From contig CACWOX010000003.1 of assembly GCA_902762615.1 (NCBI GenBank), positions 1-64,000 on the forward strand: DNA of 64,000 bases, read 5' to 3'. A model generated the notes under the pieces. It did not search any database. It worked only from the letters and a program-made list of their open reading frames with translations, and had not been told where the DNA came from. Position 1 is the stretch's first letter, and every line of letters begins with the position of its first letter. Positions 60,187 to 61,698 of this stretch are shown piece after piece. The position numbers were made by a program, and so were the translations under genes. This stretch comes from an uncultured Ruminococcus sp. (GTDB lineage Bacteria; Bacillota; Clostridia; Oscillospirales; Acutalibacteraceae).

Positions 60187-61263
60187 TTATTGTTTCTGTT
60201 TGGAAGGTGAAAGATACCTCTCGGAGAAGTGCCGCTCGTCCGCTTCGAGCATTTTCCTTGCCATTTCGTCGGCACGCGTTATCAATATCTGCTGATACCG
60301 GCACTGCTGTCCGCTGACCTCAGCCGTATCGCCGCACTGCTGGTAATTCAGACAGGCGCAGTCGTTGACGCAGCGCTTCCGCATGGCGCAGCCCTCGCAA
60401 AAGGACGGCTTTTTCAGGCTGCTCTGATAGATGGAATCCCTGCGGGCAAAGTTGATCCCTTCCTTCACGCTGCCCATGCGGTATTTTTCCATGCCGCCGA
60501 ACTGGATACATGGGTAAATGTTCCCGTCCCAGTCGATGTACGGCTTTCGCATGCCTAATTGGCAGATATGGCATTTTCTGTCCTTGGTTATGGCGAGTAT
60601 TTTTTCCTCGAAGGGGTTAAAATAGACGTCCTCTCCATTCGTGTATTTTTTCAATATGTATTCGCCCAGCATTGCAAGCTGATTTGACAGGATATCCATG
60701 CTGTCCTCGTCCCAGCCGGCAGACGGTCGGGCGTCAATGGCTAAATTCAGCCGCCTTACGCCCGACGCAAAGAGGTATTGCATGGATTCATTCACAATGC
60801 CGACGGTTTCGGGAGTCGCCGTCGCCATGATGAACGCGCCCGGGCGGTATTGCAGCAGCAGCCCGAGCTTTTCGTCCAGCGCGGCAAGGCAGTCTTTCCC
60901 ATTGGCATAGAGACGGTTGGTGCGGGTCATCAATCCGTCGTGCGACATGGCGATGTCGATATTCTCATTTCGGGCAAAATCGAGAAATTCTTCATCGAAA
61001 AGCAGTCCGTTGGTGGTCATGTTCCAGCTAAATTTTACGTCCGCAAAGCGCTTGGAATATTCCACGCATTTGTAAATCAGCGGTTTGCACAGCAGCGGTT
61101 CGCCCCCGAAGAAGGAGACGCCCACAAAGCCGTCATTCTCCCCGACCGCCATATCAATGGCACGAAGCGCCGTTTCCTCGGTCATGAAGACATTCTCGTG
61201 CGTCTCAAAGCAGTACTTACAGCGGAGGTTGCACTGCTTGGTGAGAATCAGTGAGATATTCAT
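60187..61263 (-). CDS. Radical SAM/SPASM peptide-maturase-like enzyme
   Basis: The 358 residues start at ATG 61263, which has GGAGG 7 bases upstream. The radical SAM cluster motif CNLRCKYC (about 12-19) and SFFGGEPLLCKP (about 51-62) are followed by a SPASM domain with CHICQLGMRKPYIDWDGNIYPC (about 262-283) and CEGCAMRKRCVNDCACLNYQQC (about 315-336), which bind auxiliary 4Fe-4S clusters. This layout is typical of anaerobic sulfatase-maturase and RiPP-maturase enzymes. A 96-residue peptide gene lies 15 bases upstream, favouring peptide modification. No sulfatase with the Cys/Ser maturation motif is encoded beside it. Confidence 0.88.
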   Translation of the reverse strand: MNISLILTKQCNLRCKYCFETHENVFMTEETALRAIDMAVGENDGFVGVSFFGGEPLLCKPLIYKCVEYSKRFADVKFSWNMTTNGLLFDEEFLDFARNENIDIAMSHDGLMTRTNRLYANGKDCLAALDEKLGLLLQYRPGAFIMATATPETVGIVNESMQYLFASGVRRLNLAIDARPSAGWDEDSMDILSNQLAMLGEYILKKYTNGEDVYFNPFEEKILAITKDRKCHICQLGMRKPYIDWDGNIYPCIQFGGMEKYRMGSVKEGINFARRDSIYQSSLKKPSFCEGCAMRKRCVNDCACLNYQQCGDTAEVSGQQCRYQQILITRADEMARKMLEADERHFSERYLSPSKQKQ

Positions 61264-61278
61264 GCGAAATCCTCCGCG

Positions 61279-61569
61279 TCAATTGCTTGCGTCGGGAAAA
61301 TAAGCCACGTCGCCGTCCAATGTGAATGTCTCATCGTCCGAGGAACATGCATCCGACGAGCCAATATCCGAATCCGACACATTCTCAACGGTCATGTTGC
61401 CGTCGTAATCCGGCGGCAGGTATTGCGTGTCGCCCGCTAACGAATTGCTGAAGCAGCCGGTCAGCCCTCCCAGCATTGCCGCCGCTGCCGCTGTCGCCGC
61501 AACCGCCTTCTTCACGGCTCCGCTCACGCCGTAGCCTGCTTCATAGACTTCCGTCTTTTTTGGTTTCAT
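61279..61569 (-). CDS. Candidate precursor peptide or lipoprotein partner of the radical SAM enzyme
   Basis: ATG 61569 has GGGAGG 7 bases upstream. The 96 residues comprise a basic N-terminus, an Ala-rich hydrophobic stretch (AVAATAAAAAMLGG, about 22-35) ending in the lipobox-like LTGC (Cys39), and an acidic tail rich in Asp, Ser and Tyr: QYLPPDYDGNM (about 49-59), SDIGSSDACSSDDE and a final LDGDVAYFPDASN. Only two cysteines are present. Its stop abuts the ribosome-binding site of the radical SAM gene, so they are cotranscribed. It could be a modified surface lipoprotein or a RiPP precursor. The family is not recognised. Confidence 0.75.
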   Translation of the reverse strand: MKPKKTEVYEAGYGVSGAVKKAVAATAAAAAMLGGLTGCFSNSLAGDTQYLPPDYDGNMTVENVSDSDIGSSDACSSDDETFTLDGDVAYFPDASN

Positions 61570-61635
61570 GATAATTCCTCCCTCGTTTTTTCCTTTTCTT
61601 TCATTACTATAACCTTCATTTTTCAAAAAAGGTTG

Positions 61636-61683
61636 GCAAAAAAACAAAACTTCCCCGACGCCTTTGCGAGAAAAACGTCGGGG
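61636..61683 (-). terminator. Terminator of the decarboxylase operon
   Basis: On the minus strand CCCCGACG (61683-61676) pairs with CGTCGGGG (61660-61653), followed by a T-rich run. It separates the carboxylase genes from the peptide/radical SAM operon. Confidence 0.75.
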
Positions 61684-61698
61684 ACTGATTGGAAATCA

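Follow-up and report, generated by a model that had tools for sequence, protein, structure and literature searches.

The window, by which we mean the whole 64,000-nucleotide stretch of DNA that was analysed, contains a pair of genes in which an open reading frame (ORF) for a lipoprotein-like peptide, the putative precursor, is followed in the direction of transcription by a gene for a radical SAM/SPASM enzyme (Table 1). The smaller gene starts with an ATG at position 61569 that has a GGGAGG site upstream, and 15 nt separate its stop codon from the ATG of the enzyme gene. A sequence-only reading of this DNA had described a complete radical SAM/SPASM enzyme 15 nt behind a 96-residue ORF and had called the pair isolated, and both statements hold: oadA, which lies upstream, is closed by a terminator-like hairpin, and the enzyme gene is followed by 425 bp without a plausible gene, which together indicate that the two genes form an isolated unit. 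Downstream of the pair are two tandem genes for membrane enzymes of the LtaS-like type (PF00884; 55539-59761, minus strand). The host is a gut or rumen bacterium.

Table 1. Positions of the gene pair and of its associated features in the window.
Feature	Position	Strand	Basis
Radical SAM/SPASM maturase, 358 aa	60187..61263	-	Radical_SAM match, AlphaFold model, fold match
Cys304 codon, extra Cys of the enzyme family (C302-x-C304)	60352..60354	-	Alignments
Lipoprotein-like precursor, 96 aa (leader, putative signal peptide and lipobox, acidic tail)	61279..61569	-	ORF and alignment
Repeat copy 3, LDGDV, candidate modification site	61306..61320	-	
VSDSD motif, also in ECF anti-sigma factor tail	61366..61380	-	
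Repeat copy 2, YDGNM, candidate modification site	61393..61407	-	
Repeat copy 1, LAGDT, candidate modification site	61426..61440	-	
Lipobox LTGC (residues 36-39), Cys39 invariant	61453..61464	-	Precursor alignment
Leader motif YEAGY (residues 9-13), ahead of the putative signal peptide; candidate maturase-binding element	61531..61545	-	20-precursor alignment
Promoter-like site CCAACC-N16-GGTTATA, ECF sigma factor type	61608..61636	-	Motif scan
Hairpin resembling an intrinsic terminator, between oadA and the pair	61652..61684	-	

The precursor consists of MKPKKTEVYEAGYGVSGAVKKAVAATAAAAAMLGGLTGC followed by an acidic tail of 57 residues, which contains 13 Asp or Glu, three Tyr, one Cys and neither Lys nor Arg. 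Its N-terminal part has the features of a bacterial lipoprotein, with a basic n-region (KK-AVAATAAAAAMLGGLTGC), an Ala-rich hydrophobic segment and, after this segment, the lipobox, in agreement with the Ala-rich segment, lipobox-like site and acidic tail described from the sequence earlier. Across 20 aligned precursors, the invariant residues are Y9, G12 and Y13 of the leader, C39 of the lipobox and two Gly of the tail, and V64-S65-x-S67-D68 is nearly invariant. From these features we infer that the precursor is a membrane-anchored surface lipoprotein that would be lipidated at Cys39. A profile search of the peptide, which had been proposed as a check, was run against Pfam and NCBIfam and returned no family above cut-off.

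A search of 17 same-genus genomes recovered the enzyme from every one (57-79% identity). All but one of them (16 of 17) also have one or two related ORFs of the lipoprotein type directly upstream of it, which indicates that the pairing is not due to chance. The usual gene order in the genus is oadA, precursor(s), enzyme and LtaS-like genes. Three genomes (G003, G016 and G017) keep the pair without these neighbours, on contigs that are short, and in G004 the precursor and the enzyme are on different contigs, the former beside oadA and the latter behind an argJ-like gene. An extra small soluble ORF lies between lipoprotein and enzyme in G005, G012 and G013 (L010, L006 and L003). These soluble ORFs carry a precursor-type leader (e.g., MEKQKIDTYNAGYQ) without a signal peptide, and they end in one copy of the tail repeat described below or a near match to it (FYGDI, ICGNM and YYGYD). 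Although only three in number, these cases are suggestive of a leader that is separable from the signal and fit a logic of leader plus core motif.

Scanning 84,980 species genomes yielded 80 loci, and the genome-neighbourhood survey that had been suggested for the pair shows it to recur in many phyla as well as in the genus. At most of these loci the upstream ORF encodes a leader, then a signal peptide with a lipobox, and then a tail or domain; the leader is of an N-terminal Tyr/Pro type, often with the form MKI-P-K-Y-x-x-P-x-Y. The partners fall into two kinds: in kind i the signal peptide is followed by an acidic tail, in kind ii by the motif HGxGRGSxGC and then a globular domain. In a quick tree of the enzymes, for which SH-aLRT served as the support measure, one supported (starred) clade holds 72 enzymes from many phyla, with 40 partners of kind i, 26 of kind ii and six unlabelled members, among which L111 duplicates G002 and the locus of L139 runs into a contig end. 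All but a handful of the 72 adjoin a protein of the design leader, signal, tail or domain. When a fixed rule was applied that requires an adjacent ORF with a hydrophobic segment and a lipobox-like Cys, 53 of 70 clade loci were positive, compared with 0 of 32 SCIFF maturase loci and 8 of 48 long window ORFs used as controls. Some of the 17 exceptions can be put down to a soluble leader ORF that lies in between, to a contig that ends too early, to a wider gap or to a relative without a lipobox; no lipobox-type neighbour was found at the clade loci L140, L161 and L169. In the relatives from Deltaproteobacteria (L181, L182 and L188, of which L181 and L188 are Myxococcota versions), the signal after an xPxYP-like leader is twin-arginine-like, not of the Sec type.

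Globular-domain lipoproteins with the longer signature HGxGRGSxGCxxxxPPxFLSEEEA lie upstream of the enzyme at L116, L118, L120, L125, L136, L142 and L151. In the related loci tested, such proteins matched no Pfam or NCBIfam family above cut-off, and when the globular-domain lipoprotein was modelled with AlphaFold (pLDDT 76), Foldseek found no significant match; they form an unrecognised family. One relative gave a weak PqqD match at its end (E 0.05), which was judged to be chance. Literature searches on radical SAM-modified lipoproteins and on the combination of a lipobox with a RiPP returned no description of this system, which is weak evidence given that subscription journals and preprints fall mostly outside the search.

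The acidic tails are enriched in a Gly-centred repeat. Relative to shuffled tails, [LIMVYF]xGx[VIMPAT] occurs 60 times in the genus (10.1 expected) and 122 times in other lineages (38.7 expected), and the narrower form [LIMV]xGD[VIT] occurs 61 times (2.4 expected), counts in which the tail sequences are related and hence not independent. The residue two positions before the Gly is mainly Leu, Ile or Val outside the genus, where aromatics in the repeat are dispensable, and the position directly before the Gly is usually taken by D, A, E, S or M. This variability suggests that the chemistry would take place at the backbone or at a hydrophobic residue, as in epimerisation. The modified site may also differ by subclade, because the globular partners of sister enzymes have GxGRGSxGC in place of the repeat. 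The repeat could instead be a binding or structural element, and we would regard the assignment of any single bond type as doubtful at best.

The enzyme carries CxxxCxxC and the full seven-Cys SPASM spacing (C234-x12-G-x4-C252 ... C289-x2-C292-x5-C298-x3-C302 ... C321), and all ten of these Cys are invariant in 20 relatives. The Pfam Radical_SAM model scores above its cut-off and the Pfam SPASM model just below (17.7 versus 21.5 bits). With these motifs and an adjacent precursor that has a conserved leader, the enzyme has the attributes of a radical SAM/SPASM peptide maturase, in this case one without an N-terminal RRE domain. An AlphaFold model (pLDDT 92) matched, in order, CteB, anSME, ChlB and TigE (Foldseek/VIA), with CteB at Z 37.5 and 2.2 Å over 332 residues. 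The family also has an extra Cys, Cys304, two residues past the fourth Cys of the CX2CX5CX3C segment, which is present in 68 of 69 clade enzymes and in 32 of 34 outer relatives. SCIFF maturases and CteB have Ala at this position and TigE has Gly, and the anSME alignment stops one column before it, at an Arg. The auxiliary cluster that lies closer to the active site has the fourth Cys of the segment among its ligands. Cys304 might close the coordination site that the substrate Cys uses in thioether enzymes; alternatively, it might act as a hydrogen donor.

A promoter-like site of the ECF sigma factor type precedes the pair, and its exact motif occurs three times in the whole genome: ahead of the pair, ahead of a gene for a DUF4349 lipoprotein (Pfam E 3e-43) and ahead of an operon that encodes an ECF sigma factor and its anti-sigma factor. 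The reversed pattern, used as a control, had no matches in the whole genome and none across 18 genomes. In those 18 genomes there are 30 exact sites, 13 before precursors, nine before DUF4349 lipoproteins, seven before ECF operons and one at a contig end, and the remaining ECF copies have near matches to the motif at a similar distance. No exact match was found in G003, G007 or G017, and G007 has one-mismatch sites. The site ahead of the DUF4349 gene (G000:C12:39656-39684; L192) marks a second surface lipoprotein of the putative regulon. Autoregulation is typical of ECF factors. Because the same motif also lies ahead of the sigma gene itself, the promoter is most likely that of this ECF factor, and the pair is apparently activated by an ECF sigma factor of the envelope-stress type. 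A literature search on DUF4349 together with ECF factors likewise returned no description of this system, which again counts as weak evidence with subscription journals and preprints largely outside the search.

The VSxSD motif that marks the lipoprotein tails of the genus is also found in the anti-sigma factor, in the tail beyond the membrane segment, in 13 of 16 genomes against 0.15 expected from shuffling, a count that overstates independence because the genomes are related. The anti-sigma tails with VSDSD are those of the ECF loci L222-L238 (G000:C15:82319-82849). The anti-sigma factors of G001, G006 and G008 have, in place of this motif, a tail that finishes with an LAGG/LSGG...VM.LP-like sequence, which resembles the substrate repeat. 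The sharing of VSxSD could reflect a common extracytoplasmic partner or feedback of the lipoprotein on the anti-sigma factor, and we offer both as hypotheses.

Several alternatives were weighed for what the enzyme does to the tail. A PapB/SCIFF-type thioether (ranthipeptide) maturase would link a tail Cys to a nearby Asp or Glu, for which ACSSDDE is the candidate in the window. Consistent with such an enzyme, PapB (NF047865) is the top-scoring curated radical SAM/SPASM family for the enzyme and nine relatives, CteB is the best fold match, PapB tolerates many Cys-Xn-Asp spacings (PMC9413430), and CxxxD/E is mildly enriched in genus tails (12 versus 5.3 expected). However, the PapB score of 180.3 bits is about half of the cut-off of 340, the precursor is without Cys-x3-Asp/Glu repeats, its single tail Cys has no counterpart in several genus precursors or in the majority of other lineages, in which C..[DE] occurs about as often as chance predicts (10 versus 9.3 expected), and Cys304 is not found in CteB. 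We consider a thioether maturase unlikely, and the single tail Cys agrees with the earlier remark that the tail is not Cys-rich like sactipeptide or ranthipeptide precursors. The SCIFF maturase model itself (TIGR03974) gave 109 bits against a cut-off of 425, with an alignment that begins at profile position 100. An aromatic cyclophane on tail Tyr residues, the product suggested from sequence, would draw on the richness of genus tails in Y-x-P (29 versus 5.7 expected) and in Tyr at +4 of the repeat, and ChlB, a cyclophane synthase, is among the fold matches. Outside the genus, however, Y/F-x-P is at chance (16 versus 17.5 expected) and Leu, Ile or Val usually takes the place of the aromatic that the repeat would need, and the AmcB model reached 41.5 of 425 bits, so that a cyclophane seems very unlikely to us. 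With Cys motifs at chance outside the genus and Y/F-x-P enriched only inside it, neither thioether nor aromatic cross-links explain the whole family. A cyclopropyl synthase of the TvgB/TigE type was also judged less likely, as the residue before the repeat Gly is mostly other than Val or Ile.

Other alternatives take the tail out of the reaction. That the enzyme is an anaerobic sulfatase maturase for the sulfatase-fold neighbours, with the lipoprotein incidental, is suggested by the two downstream PF00884 genes and by anSME as the second fold match, and was a concern from the outset, since enzyme homologues found consistently beside sulfatases and never beside the peptide would speak against a peptide substrate. 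The survey gave a different picture: the pair occurs without such genes, whose copy number varies within the genus (up to three in G015), and none of the remoter enzymes that were checked had a sulfatase-fold gene beside it. Furthermore, both LtaS-like neighbours lack the [CS]x[PA]xR (CxPxR/SxPxR) sulfatase signature and the anSME NCBIfam score is 59.6 bits against a cut-off of 349, and we regard a sulfatase maturase as extremely improbable. The lipoprotein tail might instead be left unmodified, if the protein regulates the enzyme, serves it as a cofactor or is merely co-expressed with it. Shared motifs need not mean substrates, because the anti-sigma factor has VSDSD away from the enzyme; against this, a leader common to lipoproteins and soluble ORFs, a repeated core motif and pairing across phyla follow the usual grammar of precursor and maturase, and an unmodified tail is in our judgement quite unlikely.

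Taken together, the pair is probably a two-gene, RiPP-like modification system that combines a leader-guided maturase with a surface lipoprotein of an ECF regulon. In this system, the first ~20 residues of the precursor, with the YEAGY element, would act as leader for the RRE-less enzyme, which would modify the tail in the cytoplasm, most likely at the hydrophobic-x-Gly-x-hydrophobic copies (LAGDT, YDGNM and LDGDV). Export, lipidation and cleavage at Cys39 would then remove the leader, with the acidic tail, in its modified form, staying anchored at the cell surface, and the autoregulated ECF sigma factor would drive both the pair and the DUF4349 lipoprotein. Given this shared control, we propose that the product serves the envelope-stress response. 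The sequence-only reading had offered a modified surface lipoprotein or a cyclophane; with a pair that is real, conserved and widespread, the surface lipoprotein is our best reading as well, the cyclophane is not retained, and the modification is proposed here as it was there. More tentatively, and with considerable doubt about the whole, the system could represent a cross-phylum class of radical SAM-modified surface lipoproteins with a leader before the signal, a new repeat chemistry free of Cys and aromatics, and VSDSD-mimic feedback on the anti-sigma factor.

The significance of the system lies in a radical enzyme whose partners, in many phyla, are membrane-anchored lipoproteins; the repeat offers a candidate site, and the Cys304 signature distinguishes the family from the nearest relatives of solved structure. 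The regulon of three gene sets points to envelope stress, not antibiotic production, and the pair would allow a clean coexpression test of a possibly new peptide chemistry. It resembles the PapB family in its simple logic of precursor and maturase, and differs in a precursor with a lipoprotein signal and in an enzyme with Cys304. CteB, a SCIFF maturase, acts on a Cys-rich peptide and has an N-terminal extension of ~95 residues, an RRE, which is missing here; among solved structures it matches best in both fold and sequence (PDB 5wgg/5why), with the same SPASM spacing and 25% identity. TvgB acts on repeated TVGG motifs and yields cyclopropylglycine (PMC9062424); the repeated short Gly motifs of TvgB/TigE resemble the tail repeats and TigE is also a fold match, whereas Val or Ile precedes the Gly in those systems and TigE lacks Cys304. 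Sec signal peptides have been described as rare among bacterial RiPP precursors, and they occur on the precursors of bufferins and other MNIO-modified RiPPs, where ~16% of Buf2 have lipoprotein signals (PMC12452194). Bufferins are the closest parallel for RiPPs that are exported and possibly anchored, although they involve a different enzyme class, Cys-based chemistry and a copper function, and their signal peptide replaces the typical leader, whereas here the leader precedes the signal peptide. Relative to known systems of radical SAM maturase and precursor, what appears to be new is the leader before a lipoprotein signal, the Gly-centred repeats and the putative ECF control.
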